DNA from: Rutstroemia sp. NJR-2017a BVV2
Taxonomy: Eukaryota > Ascomycota > Leotiomycetes > Helotiales > Rutstroemiaceae
Direction: 5' to 3'
Assembly (NCBI GenBank): GCA_002946415.1
Contig: NJPS01000043.1
Coordinates: 62,001-126,000 of the forward strand
DNA length: 64,000 bases
In this document: piece by piece, positions 24,382 through 34,971 of the stretch
How the letters are laid out: every line of letters begins with the position of its first letter
Numbering within the stretch: position 1 is the first letter of the stretch
Notes under the pieces: model-generated
What the model was told of the DNA's origin: nothing
What the model saw: only the letters and a program-made list of their open reading frames with translations
Database searches by the model: none
Translations under genes and position numbers: made by a program

Positions 24382-24946
24382 GTAAGGGATTAGCGATGAG
24401 ACTTGATATACTCAAAGTCTGCTAGGCTTCGGATAGATATGGCAGTGTAGGATTACTGTATGCAATTCTATGTTCGTTGATACCCAAAATGCGTTTGTAC
24501 AGAGTAGTGTATCGATATTTTCAACCTACTTCTCTCCAATTTTTCTCGCTCTTAGATCTAAAAGTTCTTATATTTTCTTCTGCGCGCCCAGTCCCCCGAA
24601 GACCCAATCATTCATGGACGGCGGGGTACGACTTGTCGACGACACTGAATCTTTGGATAAAGTTGGGGGCTTCGTTTCTAAGCCACAGCCACAATATATG
24701 TGGTGGCTACATCATTGGTCGAGCATCATGCACGTCAACCAGCTTGAAGCTGTGTGGTTACTCGACGAACTCGGCTGTGCTAACCTTACATGTGTCCGCG
24801 TCAACATCAACTTCAATCGGGCTGTCGTTTCTTCCTTTCTTGTTGAACTTTTTCGCATTCATTTGAGCCCATCTTTCAATCATTTCCATCCGTAATTCTA
24901 ATACATTTCACAAATCCCACGATCAGAATTTCGAAAGCCCAGAGTC
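24382..24946. other. Intergenic region
   Basis: Holds the 3' end of the preceding gene and the promoter of the ankyrin-type gene. Two overlapping frames (24470-24895) lack protein features. Confidence 0.4.
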
Positions 24947-27141
24947 ATGGCGGAAGTTGGCATCATCGCTAGTGGCATGGGTATAGCCTCGCTAGGGCTA
25001 CAGCTTCTAGACAATGTTAAGAAGCTCAAAGAATTCTGGGACTCTGTTAAAGAAGCACCAGATGATGTTCGACATGCCCTGATAGAGCTCGAAATTCTTA
25101 GGACCATCATCGATGCCATTCCCAAAAATGATACGGACATGCCAGCGATTTCCACAGCCTCGTCCGCCAGATGCTTAGGGCTTTGCTATCAAGTGCTGGA
25201 TCTGCTTGAGGCATTACTGAAGGATATGAACCAAAAGATCGAGAAGAGGCTCACCCGTGGTAGCATTCGAGTCGTTCTGAAAAAGGGCACCATCGATAGG
25301 TTTCGAGATCGACTGAGGAACGCACACGATATGCTTGCCCTTTGTCAGCAGACTTATTTGGACGCGTTACAGGCCGAACGCCACAGAATCCAACTTCAAC
25401 GCATGGAGGAAATCGATGAGTGTCAGCGGCGAGAATTTCTCGAGATGAAGGCTGCTTATACGAGCTCCGTGGCCGCGAAAGTGTGTGTCGATACCTCAAA
25501 CTCAAAGGACCTACAAACGACCAAACCTGCGGCGAGTTCGAATGTTACGACAGTGGGCATGGCCCGAGGTCGCAAACCGCATTTCAATAAAAAGCTGCAG
25601 ATGCCATTCTGGTTCCCATGTACTCATTGGGCTTGGGATTTCTCAGCGTACCGAGCACCTGCGGGATGGGATTTCACATTCCGTCAATATTATGTTATAG
25701 ATTGGGATTCGCCTGCTTGGCGACATGTGGATAATGGAGATGTAGCAGCATTGCAAGCACTGTTTGGAAGCAAGAAGGCTACCCCTTTCGATAGGTTTGT
25801 CGACGGCTTCAGTCTACTAGAGGTAAGCTTGCTGTAGCCACTTCTGAAAGAATATTTTTTCTGGGTGGATGTCTAACCTACGCCAGCAAGCCGCTATGAA
25901 TTTAGACCCAACAATGTGTCAATTCTTAATTGATGCAGGTGCGGATCCGAATGACTCCTTTTTTCGGTATGTAACTTTAAATCAGCTTTAATGTGGCATT
26001 CCTCATTAGAAATAGATCGAGGCTACCAGCTATCGCTTCATATTCTCTATCTCGACCGTCGTCTGATATAGAATATATAAACACAATACGATTGCTATTA
26101 CCGAAATTAGAGATCGACGATCCTTTCAAGAATTTCGTCTCTTTTTTTCTATCCTCTGATGTTTTATCGTGGTTGCTAGACAGTACCGACTCAGAATGGA
26201 GGCAGAGAGATCTTGCAGACAGAGCTATGTTTGCCTTAAGCATAGGCAGATGGGCGAATAGCCTGGGCAACAGATGGCAGAGTGTGTTACAGCTTATGCT
26301 GCAGAAAGATGAGCTTTCTGAAGAAATATGTGCAATGGAGACATATCATGCATTTTCCCGAGGAGATCCGCCGGGTACTTTGCTTATCTTCACTGTAAAA
26401 GCTTTGGCGGCGTCATTGTTGCGATATTGGCCGGTTTCACCTGATCAAAGGTTGCTGTCTCCGGAGGCACATATTTCGGATTTCGACCAGGGCGGTTGCC
26501 TGGCTAGCTCCGAGATAATGGCTCTCATAAACCTCACGAAAGAGCTTGTTCGGCTTAAGTCTGATATTCATCGCGTGACAATGTCGTATTATGCTAATAC
26601 AACGCTGACGATTTTGTTCTGGGTGCTTATGAGTTTCTATGGATTTGGAAACCCCAAAGCTGAAACAACTACTACGAACGAAGCAACAGATGCAAGACCT
26701 CATATTGCAGTCCGAATATGGCTTGAAGTTTTGCTAGAAGCTGGGGTAGACTTGATGGAATACGGCAAAAAAGAACACGATTGGTTTTGCAAGAATAAGT
26801 GTATTGAGACTCGCTATCATAGATTTGAGGAAGCTCCGAGGTTCCGTCTCATAAGCTTTTCCTACGGACCGAAACCTGAAGACTGGAGATTTCGATTTGT
26901 TTTGACTGAAGAATACTATGGATACTATAGGATATTCCGGGAGTTCTGGAGCATGGTTGATCATCCAGAACGTGCGACTCCTGGAGCATGGGATGCGGCT
27001 CCAGAGTGGGAATTGGGGACTTTAGGTGCTGACTGGGATATTCTATCGGATTCGGATTCGGATGAAGATTGTGATTTATATTATGATTATTATGATTATG
27101 ATGATGATGATGATGATGATCCGGATTGGGATTGGGAGTGA
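24947..27141 (+). CDS. Fungal helical N-terminal domain / ankyrin-like protein with acidic tail
   Basis: Three exons (24947-25822, 25887-25966, 26010-27141) give 695 residues. The N-terminus (MAEVGIIASGMGIASLGLQL, then LDNVKKLKEFWDSVKEAPDD) has the glycine-rich opening and amphipathic helices of the fungal N-terminal domains found in STAND/NLR-like and SesA-type proteins. These act in signalling or incompatibility. A coiled segment follows (about 140-175). The short second exon encodes an ankyrin-like unit (QAAMNLDPTMCQFLIDAGADPNDSF), with a second partial one (GDVAALQALFGSKKATPFD) just before it. The C-terminal 370 residues are unassigned and contain one hydrophobic stretch (TTLTILFWVLMSFYGFG). 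The protein ends in an Asp/Tyr-rich tail encoded by a GAT microsatellite. No NTPase domain is present, so this is not a complete STAND protein. Confidence 0.8.
27062..27140 (+). repeat. Coding GAT/TAT microsatellite (poly-Asp tail)
   Basis: Imperfect (GAT)n/(TAT)n repeats inside the last exon encode alternating Asp and Tyr followed by a run of seven Asp. Such tracts change length easily, so the acidic tail may vary between strains. Confidence 0.7.
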
Positions 27142-27952
27142 TGCTTGTACACCAACCAAGACTAGGAATCCGAACTGAAGTTTGATAGATTCTGTTCGTA
27201 TCTCGAAAACATAACCAACAGCCTTTGGACTCACAGGGTTGATGAGTACTACTTCTACCAAGCTTTTTTTGCATCTTTCGCTACACGCATCTGCTTCTCC
27301 TATATGCACTCGTTGATCCGAGTATCGGGGAGCATCGTAGAATCATCTTCAAGACGAAACAGAATCGACTACCTACAGTGATGATTGCGGTAGTTCATTG
27401 CCCAATATAAAGCTTTTCAACGACTACACCATCTAGACAGAAAAGGACAAGGATTGTCAACATCGATACAAACTTTGAAAGGATGATAAGAATTTATTAG
27501 ATTCACTGCCAGAGATGTGTCTCAAAGAATGACTTCGTGCTGGATCCTTAAGCATCGATGGGTGCTAATATCACATTGAGGTACCAAACCTCGTGATGAT
27601 TCGCTACAGTAGAAGAAGACGGTTGTGTCGTCACTTGGGTGACGGGTGCTGAACTCAATTGTAGCGTTGGACAAATTCTCAATGAACGATGGAGATTAAT
27701 CATGTGTCTTCGCTCAGAACACATACTAATATATTTCAATCATCTGATTGGTGCCTAATGCTTGACTTCGATCTTTCTAATTTGCTTGATATTATCTCAG
27801 TACAAGAGACTCTATGCTTGTCAACATCTAATCATCCTCGACCCAGAAGTACACTATGGACCCTCCGAGAAACCTCACTGAGCCTGAGTTCACGTCCTCC
27901 GCCTCGACTCCGGATTACCGACGAAATTGGCATCGCCAACTCTATCCTGACA
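27142..27952. other. Convergent intergenic region
   Basis: Lies between the ankyrin-type gene (+) and the repeat-peptide precursor (-). No supported gene was found. The open frame on the plus strand that enters the precursor (27689-28237) is its antisense shadow. Confidence 0.45.
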
Positions 27953-28216
27953 TTACACTTTGTCAGTGCCGCGGTCTTGTCTCTTGTCTTGGCCGCGATC
28001 TTGTCTCTTATCAGTACCGCGATCTTGTCTCTTGTCAGTGCCCCGGTCTTGACGCTTCACTTTGTCGTCCGTGACAGTGTCAGTGCCGCGGTCTTGTCTC
28101 TTGTCAGTGCCCCGGTCTTGTCTCTTCATTTTGTTATCCGTGACAGTGTCGGTGCCGCGGTCTTGACGCTTGACTTTGTCATCCGCGACGAATATAGTGT
28201 CGGTGCCACGGTCTTG
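27953..28216 (-). repeat. In-frame tandem repeat array of the precursor gene
   Basis: Eight imperfect direct repeats of a CAAGACCGCGGCACTGAC-type unit, spaced 24, 45 or 51 bp. All spacings are multiples of three. Third-position differences between copies (CGC/CGG/CGT, GAC/GAT, AAG AGA versus AAG CGT) show older duplication with amino-acid-level conservation. The last four units are the most alike, suggesting the most recent expansion there. Confidence 0.9.
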
Positions 28217-28387
28217 CTGTTATTCAAATTTTGTTAGTTTGCGGCCCGCCAAAGTAAAACATAGAAAGGAACGTTTGGTATGACGAACTCTTGCTTCAAT
28301 GATAGCACCTGGGTTAGCAAGCGGTGCAGCTAATGTGCTTGCAGTGAGAACTGCGGTGACCGCGATGAAGTAGGAAGTGAAGCGCAT
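27953..28387 (-). CDS. Kex2-processed repeat precursor (candidate fungal RiPP / dikaritin-like precursor peptide)
   Basis: Two exons (28387-28289 and 28216-27953) give 120 residues. Residues 1-20 are a signal peptide (MRFTSYFIAVTAVLTASTLA), followed by a short leader ending IIEAR. From residue 34 to the end there are eight copies of QDRG(T/Q)D. Seven are immediately preceded by Lys-Arg and the first by Ala-Arg. Unit lengths are 17, 15, 8, 15, 8, 8, 8 and 8 residues. The longer units carry extra tails such as TIFVADDKV or TVTD(N/D)K(M/V). This is the layout of Kex2-processed repeat proteins: ER entry, Golgi cleavage after KR, and release of several short peptides. The intron (28288-28217, 72 bp) has an uncommon GTTCGT donor but a perfect CTAAC branch site and ataacag acceptor, and joins in phase 0. 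Unspliced, translation would stop after 55 residues before any repeat. A UstYa oxidase, an FMO and an acyltransferase follow on the same strand. The core has no Tyr, Trp or Cys. Confidence 0.85.
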
Positions 28388-29126
28388 GATGTTGGATGAG
28401 GTTTGACTTATTGAGAGTATCGCGAAACTGAAGTTGTTGCTTGGAAATCCAATGGCCTCTGTCTTGTCATATATACATATTCCGTCTCTTGATCCTGATC
28501 ACGTTCTTTGATACCTCGTTAATACTATTCTCCCAAAGGGAAAGTGCCCCTCAATGCTTGTTCTAGAGAACTCATCGCGGGGACCCTTAGTGCTGGCGAA
28601 GATGCGATTTTCCTTTCTTGCATACCCTCCGGCGCATTCGTCAAATCTATTCGACGCAGAGCAGCCTGCCTTGTCGAAGGATTGCATAACTTATTCCAGA
28701 TTATTATGATGTAAGCACATATTTCGTACTGTGACCCACATTATTGGAACAAGAGAAAGGAGCCGCTGCCGAGATGTGTGATAAGCAGGGTTCGTGCAGC
28801 GTGGCGACGAAAAGGCCCATGTACGTAACGTCACCACGTGGCTTTACAGAAGATGCTGCAGTGAAAATAATGATCTTCATTGGCATCTAAACGTCAATTC
28901 CTTGAAAAGTGGGGGATCACGAAATGCGTCGAGAAGCGACCAACCGACGATATCGGTGCTTTGATTCCGTTATATCCTTCTCGGCCTGTTGAGAACTGGA
29001 TACTAATGCATGCGCCTGTAGCGGTGAATAGCTTAGCTGTTCCTCAGCTCACATCTTCCCTGGATTACCAACTTCCGAATTTAGAAAAGATGCCAGATCA
29101 CACCCCACTCTACGCTATATCTTTAG
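28388..29126. other. Intergenic region within the putative RiPP cluster
   Basis: Promoter of the precursor gene plus the 3' end of the acyltransferase gene. Short minus-strand frames (28499-28687 and 28704-28886) and one plus-strand frame (28880-29251) are present. None could be spliced into a convincing protein. Confidence 0.4.
28463..28480 (-). promoter_or_regulatory. TATA-like element of the precursor gene
   Basis: On the minus strand ATATGTATATATGAC lies about 80 bp upstream of the precursor ATG, a plausible core-promoter distance. It is supported by pattern and position only. Confidence 0.35.
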
Positions 29127-30593
29127 TCAAAGCTTATATGCTGTCAACTTCAGATAGAGATACTTTGCTATCCGCATACTCGGGTCATCCACAGTTCTCC
29201 AGAATATATCAGCAACCCAGAAGACGATTGGTGCGATCAAAACGAAGCTAGTCACCAGACCAAGCTGATGATGCTCTGGACCCCAATGCTCCCATATGGT
29301 GGAGATGACACCATAGCCTAAACTATGCAGAACTGGGCCGTGAACTAAGTACATGGCATACGAGATTTTACCAATGTAACCAGCAAACGGGGTATTGAAG
29401 GGTTTCTGGAGGAAACTGCAATTGCTTGCAGACCATACTACTAGGATGGCACCGTATGTGTGCCAGTTCCAATAGTGGGAAGTAATTATGGAGAGTACCA
29501 TGAAGCCTGGAGTCTCTGCACTGTGCCTGATCGGGAAGGAGAGAAGGAACATCCCACAAATGATAACAGTAGACCAAACGAAAGTGGCGAGCCATGCTTG
29601 TCGGATGAGCAATACTCCTCGTTCAAGCTGTATCTGCTGCATTTCCGCCATGCATATCCCGCTGATGAAAAGGGCAACTTCCCACTTCTGAAACCACATG
29701 CAGTACACGAAGGAAGCAGCAGCTAATGTGAAGCGCATAGTCGTGCGTGTTCTGGCTAGACCAATTATCACCAGGAATAGTATCATCGAAGCTCTGAACT
29801 CGATAGGTATCGTCCATAGGTGGGAGTCGTAACGGTAATCGAAAACTCGCCACGACCAAGGATTCATCAGCTCTAAGGTGACGAAACTGGCCCAGTCGGT
29901 GAACTGTTCAAGAATACTTTGAAGGTGCTTGGGCCGTGCTTCAATGAAGCCTGGCAGGTCCCTATAACCAGGAAAGTCTTCAATGCCTAGGCAGATGGTC
30001 AGGAGGACGATGAATGTCGAGATTGTAGTCGGAAGAAAAAGCCTCATTCCTCGTCGAAAGATCGCAGAAGACATGTTGTCCAGAAGATCAGCCCATAAGC
30101 CATGCCTCATTAGCGCCAACGGTTTATATGACAATGCGTAACCGGATACAACAAAGAAGATCGATACCATCGGGATACCAGAGTGGAAGAGTCTGATGAT
30201 GGGCAGTTGACACAGGTGGGTATTATTGTTGTAGCCATAGCCTAACTCCTTTGCAGGCCGGAATGGTTCTGAAAAATGAGACACAAACACAACTAGAGAA
30301 GCATAGCCCCTCATACCATCTAGGAAAGACGTCGTTGAGCCATGACTAGGTTTGGTAATCGTCGACCTCCCATCCAGAAATGCGGGGTACCAGCTGGGAA
30401 GAACGAATAATGCTGAGTACGAACAGTAATTGCATAATACTTCGTAGAAGTTATGTCGCCTTGATCCACCGATAATGTGATCACTGGAGGTATATGTCGG
30501 GGAACCGTAGTGCTGGCTCATTCTGTAAATTGTCGGACTGGATAGTGTTTCCGCCTTCACTCGAAGGTCATATCGACGGATACATGCTGCCAT
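29127..30593 (-). CDS. Acyltransferase 3 family membrane protein
   Basis: Intronless, 488 residues. The N-terminal region contains FLDGMRGYASLVVFVSHF, the family's start block (LDGLRG...V...H) with the catalytic-type histidine. IPMVSIFFVVSGYALSYKPL, the typical FFVlSGf block, follows. About ten hydrophobic helices span the rest, and YIGKISYAMYLVHGPVLHSLG near residue 415 is the conserved C-terminal block. Members transfer acyl groups from acyl-CoA to sugars, peptides or secondary metabolites at a membrane. An alternative start is the Met at residue 25 (30521). The gene lies between the repeat-peptide precursor and the UstYa-type gene on the same strand, so a role in acylating the peptide product is plausible inference. 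Confidence 0.9.
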   Translation of the reverse strand: MAACIRRYDLRVKAETLSSPTIYRMSQHYGSPTYTSSDHIIGGSRRHNFYEVLCNYCSYSALFVLPSWYPAFLDGRSTITKPSHGSTTSFLDGMRGYASLVVFVSHFSEPFRPAKELGYGYNNNTHLCQLPIIRLFHSGIPMVSIFFVVSGYALSYKPLALMRHGLWADLLDNMSSAIFRRGMRLFLPTTISTFIVLLTICLGIEDFPGYRDLPGFIEARPKHLQSILEQFTDWASFVTLELMNPWSWRVFDYRYDSHLWTIPIEFRASMILFLVIIGLARTRTTMRFTLAAASFVYCMWFQKWEVALFISGICMAEMQQIQLERGVLLIRQAWLATFVWSTVIICGMFLLSFPIRHSAETPGFMVLSIITSHYWNWHTYGAILVVWSASNCSFLQKPFNTPFAGYIGKISYAMYLVHGPVLHSLGYGVISTIWEHWGPEHHQLGLVTSFVLIAPIVFWVADIFWRTVDDPSMRIAKYLYLKLTAYKL

Positions 30594-30886: not shown

Positions 30887-31808
30887 CTACACACCTGGAT
30901 CCCTATACTCTTCGGTCCAGTCTTTTAACTCGTCGAAATTCTTACACTTATGCACAACCCCCCATCCAGTTGACCCCTGTGGCCTTGGAGTCACGCCATC
31001 TGCTTCTAAAAACGCTTCTAACGTGGAATCTGCCGCGCACATCAAGCTCTGGCGTATATAATCGAAGCAGTGCGTTGTATGTCCAGCCAATGATTTGTAC
31101 GCCGGGTGCCCGGGAAGATGGACAGGGCCATCAAGGATTTGAGGCCCATTTTCAATCACTGCAAACCATGCATTTCGGATCAATGTCCTGCGAAATATGC
31201 GTTAGTAAAGATAACAAGACGTGTTCAAGGAGGACTTGCAAACAGTGAAGCTGATGAAATGCTGACACTGCGTAGACGTTGCTTCCTGGTTTCTGACCAG
31301 CAGCTGATGGTGGTAGACCGTACTCTGTGGGATTGTCGATCATCACAAATCCTGGAAATGCTTAGTGACTCTCCAAAGTACTTGGTACATTCTATTTACG
31401 TGAATGCATTGTCAACCACACGTCGTCACTTTCTTTTGTGTGATTCACTGGGTTGAATGCTTCATCTGGCATGAACAGCACCGGGCGTTCAGAACTTGTG
31501 AAATCTGTTGAATGTTCGTCAGCCAGTTGAACTTCTCGAAACTTGAAATTGTGGAGAAACTAATCACGATACTCACAAGAAGACCTGGTGGATTTCTGAT
31601 GTCGTTGCCATTCTAACGAGAATATTCGGAATGCGAGTATCGCGCACACAGTCGATAGGACAAGAATCACAGTAACCAGTCGTCGGCGTAGCCTTTGCTC
31701 TGTTCTGGAAGTATCCAAATTGTCTTGAGGATAAATTCCATCTTCAATCAGCTCGTTACCTTGGGCATCCGAACTATCTCTTGACAAACTCTCATACTTT
31801 TGAGGCAT
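30887..31808 (-). CDS. UstYa / DUF3328 family oxidase
   Basis: Four exons (31808-31577, 31504-31400, 31351-31240, 31187-30887) give 249 residues, the usual length. Residues about 44-60 form a single membrane helix (LVTVILVLSTVCAILAF) after an acidic cytosolic N-terminus. The two family signatures are present: HQLHC at 145-149 and HCFDYIRQSLMC from 189, followed by AADSTLE. Characterised UstYa enzymes (ustiloxin, asperipin, cyclochlorotine, victorin pathways) are copper-type oxidases that cyclise or hydroxylate peptide products; the histidines are thought to bind metal. The third intron uses a GC donor (gcaagt...cgcag), which makes the junction HCLTLIRNAWFAV. Reading on would give a stop. The second intron is 48 bp; an acceptor 9 bases earlier (39 bp intron, giving PFPGFV in place of RFV) is possible. 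An upstream in-frame Met at 31862 exists. Confidence 0.9.
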
Positions 31809-32620: not shown

Positions 32621-34971
32621 TCAGCGTGTGAAAAAGATATTAGAGCCTCCATCAACAGATTCTCCCTCAGAGTACCTCTCAATAGCAAATTCAACAACAT
32701 GCACACCAGCAAAACAAAACGTATAAACAGGCATAGTATTTGCATCCCGAGTCTCCGAGGTTGCAGCAACCGTAGCTACTACAGACAAGCAGTCCTCCGC
32801 ATCTGATGTGGCGGAGGCAAACTCGAGTTCGTAGACCTGTGTATTTGCAACACCGTTTTCACGCACGTTCCAAATACCAATAATATTTGATGTCTCGCAC
32901 ATTCGGTACACGAAGCTGCGCACCGTGTGCCCACCCTCTCCTTTCATGATGACGAAGTACTCAAGATCCGAGATTCCATCTGTGGGAAAGCGCGGATGGA
33001 ACGACACGGTCCTCGCCAACTCAACGGAATCATCATCACGAATGGATGAGTCCAATCTTTCCAGTCTGTTAATGGTCCAGTTGCCATGCAGGCCTCGAAA
33101 CGCAGCTCGGGCTGCAAACGCTCGTTGATTGGTCGACGTATCTAGAAGTTTCTGAAGCTTCTGCATCGTTTTCTCGGCTTCGAGGCGATCGCAGCCAGAA
33201 TCGATATACCGGGCAGGACACGACATACCCTCTCTTGCTCCCCAGCTTAAGTCCACTCTCTGAAGATCCAATTCTCGAGACGTCTGTTCCATCAAGCCAG
33301 CATAGTCACCGAAGAAGTTTTGAGGAACTGATGATGGGTCTTCTCTCAGTATCGATCTAATCTCTTTCATGAAGGTGTAGAGCTTTGAGCTAAGTTTTTC
33401 ATCTGTCCCAGGAGTTGGATCACTTGACGTAGGTGACTGTCCTGCTATTTCCGATGCCCATTTTCGTGCTATGGCACGGGCTTCTGTCTCCAGGACTCCC
33501 CAATACGACCCGTAGTTGAAGCCCATCAGTGCTAGATTCTCGGGCGCTGCATCTGACGATGTTGAGAAATTACGATTCAGAAGTAGCGGTAGTCGTGGGC
33601 ACGAGACATCATAGCCTACGGCGTTTTTGAGCGCTTCAGGCATGAAGTCTAACGTTGGCTCGAATCCGGTTGCGTATATCACTGCTGCGGTTTCTTGTAT
33701 TTCAACTTCTTCAGAACCTCCACTCATGATAGCACGCAGAAGACTCATGGCTTCCTATGTTTTGTCAGTTGTGTTCCAATAGGTGTTGGGGCATAAGTAG
33801 TGAATTAAGATTTCAAACATTCTATTGTCCGTTTCACTTTTGGTAGACAGACACTTACTTGATGGTTATTCTCCGTCTGAGCTTCTATGCTGAGTACCCG
33901 GCCTAAGATAGGACGAATAGCAGCAGATCGAACGTATTCCACGTAGCTTTCACTAACAGCAGCATAAGGGGAAGCAGCCCCCGCTGCCCGAGAATTCTCG
34001 TCATCAGGATCATCTTGCTTGCTTGTCGCTCCTTCCATGATTTTAATAAGCAAATATCTTAACTGCCTCGTATTTTCAGGTGTAATATGCCCGTACATCC
34101 ACGAGATGGGATCATCTGGTCGATGGGATAGATCATACAGCGTCGAATCCAATGGCAGAAATGTGGGCCAAGATTCCTTTCCAGCTTGTACGAAATTAGG
34201 CAGAGAGACCAGAGGGTACGGCATCACGTGTATGATTTCTAGCGGCTCAGTGCCGGATCCAGTAGGAGAGTATCTGGCATCTGACATTTGTAGAGCGATT
34301 GCCGCCGCGACTTCGACACCTGAATGGGAGCCTCCGATGATGAGAATCTTTCCTGTAGATGGCTGAATACCTGTAGTGAAGAGATCACTGAGTTTCCGAT
34401 ATTGAGAACTGTGTAATATAGAAGCTTGGTTAACATTAGGGCTTGAAGTTATGTTGTGCAAGTTGAAAGTTGGCAGTTGAGGTTTAGTAAACAGACCAGA
34501 TGCAACGATCAAATAATCGAAAATTGCGACATTCTCCTTCTCCGAGTTCGAGTTTCCATCATTCAATTGCACGTAGGTAACTCTCCACTGAGACTTTTTG
34601 TCAGCCGTTGTCTGCTCAACGTTCTTCACATAGCTTTGGAGAGCAACAACACCGTCTAGCACGAACTTCCGAGCATAATGCTCCAAATATCGGTTGACCT
34701 GCCAAGCTTTGGGGAAAACATTTGCTGCCGGCTGCAGGTCTAAGCTCTCCCAAGCTAAATCGGAAAAGCAGACACTAAACTGGAAAAGGTTTGTGTTCAT
34801 ATCTGCATTGATTAGACCCGCTGGGTGTGATGCCACTGCCCAGAGGCCACCGACACTCTTGCCTTGTTCGTAGACTGATACGCTAAAAGTGTCTTTGGCA
34901 CAAGAATGGAGGAGTGTTTTGGCGGCTACAAGCCCTGCTGGACCGGCACCAATTATTGCGACTGACTTCAT
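32621..34971 (-). CDS. Flavin-containing monooxygenase with DUF6314-like C-terminal domain
   Basis: Two exons (34971-33859 and 33754-32621) joined in phase 0 give 748 residues, longer than a plain FMO (about 450-550). The FAD Rossmann motif is IIGAGPAGLVAAK (6-18), with the second glycine motif KSVGGLW near 42. The NADPH motif is ILIIGGSHSGVEVA near 225, preceded by the H-x3-Y part of the FMO fingerprint (LHSSQY). VIYATGFEP near 397 is the ATG motif. From about residue 585 a separate domain begins (FRGLHGNWTINRLERL), with SFHPRFPTD, EYFVIMKGEGG, FVYRM and a C-terminal FCFAGVHVVEFAIERY. It matches the pattern of the fungal DUF6314 domain. FMOs insert one oxygen atom into N, S or C centres; FMOs occur in the ustiloxin pathway. 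The ATG at 34971 opens directly into the FAD motif. Confidence 0.9.

Follow-up and report, generated by a model that had tools for sequence, protein, structure and literature searches.

Gene content of the locus

Four genes lie close together on the minus strand of the window, i.e., the whole stretch of 64,000 nt of Rutstroemia sp. NJR-2017a BVV2 DNA that was analysed (Table 1). They comprise a short spliced gene encoding a precursor with eight copies of a QDRG(T/Q)D core, and genes for an AT3 acyltransferase, a UstYa (DUF3328) protein and a flavin-containing monooxygenase (FMO), all on the strand of the repeat array and all within 7 kb of it.

Table 1. Features of the precursor gene and the neighbouring enzyme genes (positions in the window)
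Feature	Position	Strand	Description
Precursor gene	27953..28387	minus	spliced; product of 120 aa, sequence read directly; ATG at 28387
Precursor exon 1	28289..28387	minus	99 bp; signal-peptide-like start MRFTSYFIAVTAVLTASTLA and leader APLANPGAIIEAR; hydropathy peak at residues 6-24
Precursor intron (predicted)	28217..28288	minus	72 bp; GTTCGT donor, CTAAC, CAG acceptor
Precursor exon 2	27953..28216	minus	264 bp, stop codon included; eight QDRG(T/Q)D copies with KR flanks
Core copy 1, QDRGTD	28199..28216	minus	after AR; predicted Kex2 fragment QDRGTDTIFVADDKV, 15 residues
Core copy 2, QDRGTD	28148..28165	minus	after KR; predicted fragment QDRGTDTVTDNKM, 13 residues
Core copy 3, QDRGTD	28103..28120	minus	after KR; predicted fragment QDRGTD, 6 residues
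Core copy 4, QDRGTD	28079..28096	minus	after KR; predicted fragment QDRGTDTVTDDKV, 13 residues
Core copy 5, QDRGTD	28034..28051	minus	after KR; predicted fragment QDRGTD, 6 residues
Core copy 6, QDRGTD	28010..28027	minus	after KR; predicted fragment QDRGTD, 6 residues
Core copy 7, QDRGQD	27986..28003	minus	after KR; sole copy with an altered residue; predicted fragment QDRGQD, 6 residues
Core copy 8, QDRGTD	27962..27979	minus	after KR; then KV and stop; predicted fragment QDRGTDKV, 8 residues
AT3 acyltransferase	29127..30593	minus	PF01757, 69.9 bits (cut-off 31); single exon, 488 aa
UstYa (DUF3328) oxidase	30887..31808	minus	PF11807, 109.1 bits (cut-off 25), spliced model; four exons 31808-31577, 31504-31400, 31351-31240, 31187-30887
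Flavin-containing monooxygenase (FMO)	32621..34971	minus	PF00743, 64.5 bits (cut-off 22); exons 34971-33859, 33754-32621; 748 aa

The spliced precursor model reads MRFTSYFIAVTAVLTASTLAAPLANPGAIIEAR, followed by the eight QDRG(T/Q)D units. The first-pass annotation had proposed a spliced minus-strand product with a signal-peptide-like start, a 13-residue leader and eight copies, and direct reading combined with an enumeration of possible introns confirmed it; the signal was recognised by eye and from hydropathy, and the leader was counted past a likely cleavage between LA and AP, read by eye. That the repeats are reached only by splicing proved correct as well, as the unspliced frame stops directly ahead of exon 2. 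The enumeration covered GT-AG introns of 40-250 bp that preserve the repeat frame, with donors within 200 bases past the ATG. Among these pairs, the 72-bp intron is the one that keeps the entire signal-like start and has an acceptor abutting the first core; with the remaining in-frame pairs, either the signal region or the first copies would be partly lost, or copy 1 would be preceded by extra residues. The last base of the branch-like CTAAC lies 16 bases upstream of exon 2. The donor is weak, agreeing with GTAAGT at positions 1, 2, 5 and 6 only. A GC donor (GCAAGA at 28294) may be an alternative, all the more because a GC-AG intron occurs in the neighbouring UstYa gene model; it would give a 78-bp intron in the same frame and remove the Ala-Arg ahead of copy 1. 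The flank of copy 1 is therefore the least certain part of the model. A TATA-like box is located at 28475, ~90 bases upstream of the ATG. The gene is almost certainly real, with the intron as a predicted element.

Codon-level reading of the flanks bore out the earlier description of seven cores directly after Lys-Arg and the first after Ala-Arg, the dipeptide being encoded as AAG-CGT twice and as AAG-AGA five times. Five core positions (Q1, D2, R3, G4, D6) are unchanged in all eight copies, and the only replacement is Thr5 to Gln in copy 7. The six-residue core stood as a motif common to all eight fragments, but not as the unit released, since only four of the eight predicted fragments are six residues long. 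Neither version of the core contains Tyr, Phe, Trp or His; one of the eight full fragments has a single Phe. The sequence supports the repeat architecture with predicted Kex2 cleavage that had been described earlier, and the genome encodes one kexin-type P domain (a single match, 62.5 bits). As judged from its sequence, the protein is a Kex2-processed repeat precursor.

Selection on the core and uniqueness of the array

Among the core copies, the frequency of differences at silent sites was about eleven times that at replacement sites: in the sense frame, pS was 0.504 and pN 0.045 among the eight cores (56.5 of 112 synonymous and 17.5 of 392 nonsynonymous site comparisons). When the Lys-Arg codons were included (seven copies), the values were 0.467 and 0.063. 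The pattern was reversed in sense frame +1 (pS 0.057, pN 0.202), and sense frame +2 contains stops. One antisense frame gave pS 0.363 against pN 0.051 on the bare cores, but it stops in two of the seven copies once the Lys-Arg codons are included, whereas the antisense frame that remains open showed the opposite of selection (pS 0.071, pN 0.181). With the antisense frames either broken or reversed, the selected product is therefore the sense peptide, and purifying selection acts on the core in the sense reading frame. Two occurrences of KRQDRG were never obtained in 20,000 residue shuffles of exon 2.

A DNA search found the array once in the 43.4-Mb genome. Scanning the genome with a degenerate QDRG pattern yielded 39 matches, 8 in the array and 31 elsewhere, compared to 14 for the backward control pattern; further QDRG arrays were rejected, as the DNA search returned the array itself only. 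A pattern scan of a viral collection gave two matches, which were dropped (single units, with nearby stops in the matching frame and no repeat precursor in the ORF lists). No homologous repeat precursor was found in a relative at E up to 10 among 958 scored candidates, i.e., predicted proteins sharing short words with the query, a scope within which the result does not refute the first-pass annotation. The precursor itself was absent among the predicted-protein matches, whereas the UstYa protein of the same contig appeared; the likely reason is that the repeats can be reached only by splicing. The precursor matched no Pfam family at E up to 1 and, judged by the family and homolog searches, neither of which returned a match, it is not placed among the alpha-pheromone precursors.

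Neighbouring enzymes

The AT3 protein carries R95-X10-H106 and R181-X2-R184. In an alignment of 13 sequences chosen from the 120 homologs listed, R181 was invariant and R95, H106 and R184 were conserved at 90% or more. R-X10-H and RXXR are the two motifs found essential in AT3 proteins, according to the accessible part of the literature, and together with the PF01757 domain they place the protein in the AT3 acyltransferase class. Among the matches listed, its closest relatives came from a JGI metagenome (85% over 98%), from Rutstroemia NJR-2017a BBW (91% over 71%) and from Clarireedia jacksonii (79% over 65%).

The first-pass annotation had placed the array beside UstYa genes. A UstYa gene does lie nearby, with a clear PF11807 match and two HxxHC motifs (HQLHC at 145, HTTHC at 186); the plural did not hold, as the genome-wide search showed that the two exon matches in the window belong to one gene. 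Its protein has one strong hydrophobic segment, at residues 44-62. The third intron (31239-31188) is of the GC-AG type, a junction supported by the homologs P0122, P0123 and P0124, which read across it as in the model. The public protein P0121 of the same organism equals the model except for eight extra residues at the third intron and the first 88 residues, which are missing. In P0125 (JGI), the first UstYa intron appears to have been retained as coding sequence. The relatives among the matches listed included the metagenome proteins P0122 (70% over 64%) and P0125 (63% over 45%), a protein of Diplodia intermedia (59% over 59%), an entry named Neofusicoccum parvum (46% over 86%) and, at a lower level, one of Sclerotinia trifoliorum (35% over 84%). 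Rutstroemia sp. NJR-2017a is placed in the Rutstroemiaceae, Helotiales, and Diplodia and Neofusicoccum belong to the Botryosphaeriaceae, a distant family; on these sequences, the distribution of UstYa relatives appears patchy. Two PDB matches of UstYa (E 0.45 and 0.94), both penicillin-binding protein 2x, were ignored. Leptodontidium (scaffold 2,668,938) and Venturia effusa (2,471,327) occurred in both the UstYa and the AT3 lists, at identities of only 29-41%, and were not used as evidence for conservation of the cluster.

For the FMO, roughly the last 190 residues gave no Pfam match over the cut-off, and the hydropathy profile showed no hydrophobic N-terminal segment. A single-sequence structure of its exon 2 was discarded (mean pLDDT 34.4). 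In NCBIfam, no cut-off was reached for FMO exon 1 among the best 25 of 54 matches, and two other enzyme exons had zero matches. None of the four cluster genes was recognisable as encoding a protease, a transporter or a regulator. On the opposite side of the cluster, the gene at 24902-25834 (plus strand) encodes an N-terminal domain that weakly resembles PigL_N, scoring 15.9 bits against a cut-off of 27.2.

Linkage and other UstYa loci of the genome

The distance from the precursor ATG to the UstYa stop is 2.5 kb. Genome-wide, 79 UstYa exon matches were merged by a rough rule into ~56 genes; the figure is probably too high, as loci that are split or duplicated count repeatedly. Assuming 56 UstYa genes, the probability that a random point falls no more than 2.5 kb from one is 0.0064. 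This low value supports, without proving, a shared pathway for the array and UstYa. Identical match scores and lengths in three contig pairs (C50/C74, C25/C74, C17/C75) suggest duplicated or overlapping stretches in the assembly.

We scanned stop-to-stop frames for repeat precursors in the window and at 11 other UstYa-bearing places of the genome (22 stretches). Two of the five matches were dropped as low-complexity Arg/Lys/Gly stretches (L032, 4985-5167, and 52009-52362 in the window), and the window contained no other repeat precursor. At the 11 other places the scan found two precursors, each with units that contain both Tyr and Phe. One is a Kex2-repeat frame (L026, 1712-2062, plus strand; genome C54, ~262.6 kb) with units like NNFEVDSEIGANRYATA, 1.4 kb from a UstYa match; the other (L038, 9228-9899, plus strand; genome C41, ~1075.2 kb) begins with a signal-like sequence, has units QTTEFGPYPEDDYAN and lies ~2.6 kb from a UstYa match. 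The contrast between the aromatic-free core and these two Tyr/Phe precursors is small in number.

Comparison with known repeat precursors and peptide clusters

Published systems were compared on the basis of the accessible text of the sources (PMC7329392, PMC6339444, PMC10512285, PMC9233826, PMC10880069, PMC9833829, PMC12048977, PMC12435403, PMC12423673). Like the KEPs of Le Marquer (2019) and Umemura (2020), the precursor has a signal-like start and at least three near-identical units at Lys-Arg sites; it differs in a core type that had no relative in the predicted-protein search. Le Marquer defined KEPs by at least four fragments after cutting at KR or RR, at least three of them similar, and repeats making up at least 15% of the length. 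Here, seven KR sites give eight pieces, all with QDRG(T/Q)D, and the cores account for 48 of 120 residues (counted by hand). Umemura defined them by at least three tandem repeats, each of at least eight residues between Kex2 sites, in an annotated protein; by comparison, four of the eight fragments have six residues, the longer ones are non-contiguous, and the predicted-protein search returned no such protein. Because it required annotated proteins and tandem units of at least eight residues, the Umemura screen may well have missed this gene. In that survey, 1758 of 7878 repeat precursors (22%) had DUF3328 genes in their vicinity; in this group, 65.6% of the repeats contained Tyr, and other common DUF3328-linked repeat types use His-His or Trp. 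A repeat precursor beside UstYa is therefore a known arrangement, and cases without Tyr exist.

The earlier interpretation as a RiPP-type precursor of the ustiloxin, phomopsin and asperipin kind beside UstYa was partly supported. A like-for-like match failed, as those peptides cyclise through Tyr and the QDRG(T/Q)D core has no aromatic residue. Lacking Tyr, Phe, Trp and His, the core cannot form the aromatic cross-link of ustiloxin or phomopsin within itself. Dikaritins are defined, in the accessible text, by a core cyclised by a UstYa enzyme. The locus has a Kex2-repeat precursor, as far as architecture goes, and an adjoining UstYa with two HxxHC motifs; the aromatic core residue, a trait of the described members that lies outside the definition, is absent. 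The precursor is dikaritin-like, and we do not class it as a dikaritin, because the aromatic residue common to the described members is lacking and cyclisation is a property of the product.

Individual clusters, as described in the accessible text, share different parts of this arrangement. The phomopsin cluster also combines a repeat precursor with UstYa enzymes, and, on the basis of gene inactivation, the formation of dehydro-Ile, dehydro-Asp and dehydro-Pro was attributed to three of its DUF3328 proteins; the QDRG(T/Q)D core has two Asp. It differs in its N-terminal Tyr cross-link and its five DUF3328 genes, compared to one UstYa and no core aromatic here. The asperipin-2a cluster has a single DUF3328 gene too, but its bicyclic core is formed via Tyr side chains, and it has a reductase and a transporter where the Rutstroemia locus has AT3 and FMO. 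The ustiloxin cluster shares the repeat precursor, UstYa proteins and flavin monooxygenases and differs in the Tyr cross-link, a P450 and a PLP enzyme; an AT3 acyltransferase is not named in the accessible parts of its descriptions. Both asperipin-2a and ustiloxin have been produced in the laboratory host Aspergillus oryzae. The lichen Clan R2 clusters (Pasinato and Singh 2025) likewise pair a UstY homolog with acetylating enzymes, but these are GNAT acetyltransferases and no repeat precursor was found there, whereas the Rutstroemia locus has a membrane AT3 and a clear precursor. No fungal RiPP with an AT3 acyltransferase was found in the literature searched, within its accessible parts.

CctR and the other cyclochlorotine DUF3328 enzymes belong to the same family, have the same copper motif and act on aliphatic C-H; their substrate, however, is a nonribosomal cyclic peptide. 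According to the accessible descriptions, DUF3328 proteins have a membrane anchor, their catalytic part is proposed to face the lumen of the organelle, and they bind two coppers at HxxHC(x)nHxxHC; CctR hydroxylates an aliphatic carbon in cyclochlorotine and needs the copper site.

Proposed pathway

We consider it fairly likely that the four genes form a small cluster whose product is a ribosomal peptide, modified by UstYa, AT3 and FMO and secreted. The precursor is probably a UstYa-linked RiPP, and a UstYa-linked Kex2 peptide is the best reading of the locus. We infer all enzyme steps, and the target residue named for each enzyme is a guess. The precursor would enter the ER, and the membrane-anchored, lumen-facing, binuclear-copper UstYa would oxidise aliphatic C-H of the core without an aromatic cross-link, the simplest targets being the two invariant Asp (desaturation or beta-hydroxylation). 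Kex2 would cut after Lys-Arg, and a Kex1-like carboxypeptidase would trim the dipeptide. AT3 may acylate the peptide across the membrane, drawing on cytosolic acyl-CoA, at Thr, at a new hydroxyl or at the N-terminus; alternatively, the N-terminal Gln may close to pyroglutamate. Kex1-type trimming and pyroglutamate formation are drawn from general knowledge. FMO may oxygenate a nitrogen, perhaps one of those in the side chain of Arg. What the fungus secretes would be a modified peptide, short and polar. The calculated [M+H]+ is 691.3006 for unmodified QDRGTD and 674.2740 for its pyroglutamyl form; for QDRGQD the values are 718.3115 and 701.2849.

The pathway is supported by the HxxHC(x)nHxxHC motif of UstYa, the copper site that CctR requires, and by the retention of Lys-Arg at all seven internal flanks, where two Arg codons are in use. 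Chemically, it is reasonable for a UstYa to act on a non-aromatic substrate, because CctR hydroxylates an aliphatic carbon and the phomopsin DUF3328 proteins have been assigned the formation of dehydro residues. According to the accessible text of PMC12423673, AT3 proteins carry acyl groups across the membrane to acceptors on the extracytosolic side, and by analogy such a transfer would fit a substrate located in the secretory lumen. To propose a peptide as the acceptor is to extrapolate, as the acceptors described there are mostly carbohydrates. Copy 7 has Gln instead of Thr, which argues against Thr as an essential acyl acceptor, and FMO may miss a peptide in the lumen since it has no hydrophobic N-terminal segment. 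We hold only tentatively, as a possibility rather than an expectation, the more specific idea of an aromatic-free UstYa RiPP, in which UstYa would modify an aliphatic residue without a Tyr/Phe cross-link and AT3 would acylate the peptide in the secretory lumen.

The same precursor could also be processed by Kex2 into linear, unmodified peptides with a signalling, effector-like or cell-surface role, the enzymes belonging to another pathway. This is unlikely, yet worth serious consideration: 6120 of the 7878 surveyed repeat precursors (78%) lacked a neighbouring DUF3328 gene and several of those known are linear, according to the accessible text, and the known cross-link would find no aromatic residue in the core, while Tyr occurs in most DUF3328-linked precursor repeats. 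Against it stand the common strand and close spacing of UstYa, AT3 and FMO, with a UstYa this near expected by chance in only ~0.6% of cases, and the fact that UstYa proteins modify non-aromatic residues too. Far less probable is a conventional aromatic dikaritin, with the long first fragment QDRGTDTIFVADDKV as the true core, its Phe cross-linked and the short copies as spacers; victorin is described in the accessible part of a review as cyclised through Phe, but an aromatic residue occurs in only one of the eight fragments, and repetition and selection fall on QDRGTD. As explanations of the repeats, a non-coding minisatellite, a decayed gene and the long antisense frame at 27686-28237 as the real gene are hardly credible: tandem periods of 24, 45 and 69 nt, an open antisense frame of 183 aa and the pS excess of one antisense frame on bare cores could suggest them, but we rejected these readings on the pS/pN of the sense and antisense frames given above, and the sense frame has a signal-like start and a splice junction directly 5' of copy 1.

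Significance

If UstYa acts on the aromatic-free core, searches that rely on Tyr or on repeats of at least eight residues miss part of this peptide class. Should the aromatic-free reading be true, a small cluster of four genes, with a single UstYa among them, would allow the substrate range of the copper DUF3328 family to be tested. With AT3 as a neighbour, acylation across the membrane would become accessible to experiment as part of fungal RiPP maturation and, if the aromatic-free reading with AT3 is true, the product would be an acylated fungal RiPP, of a kind not met in the accessible parts of the literature searched.
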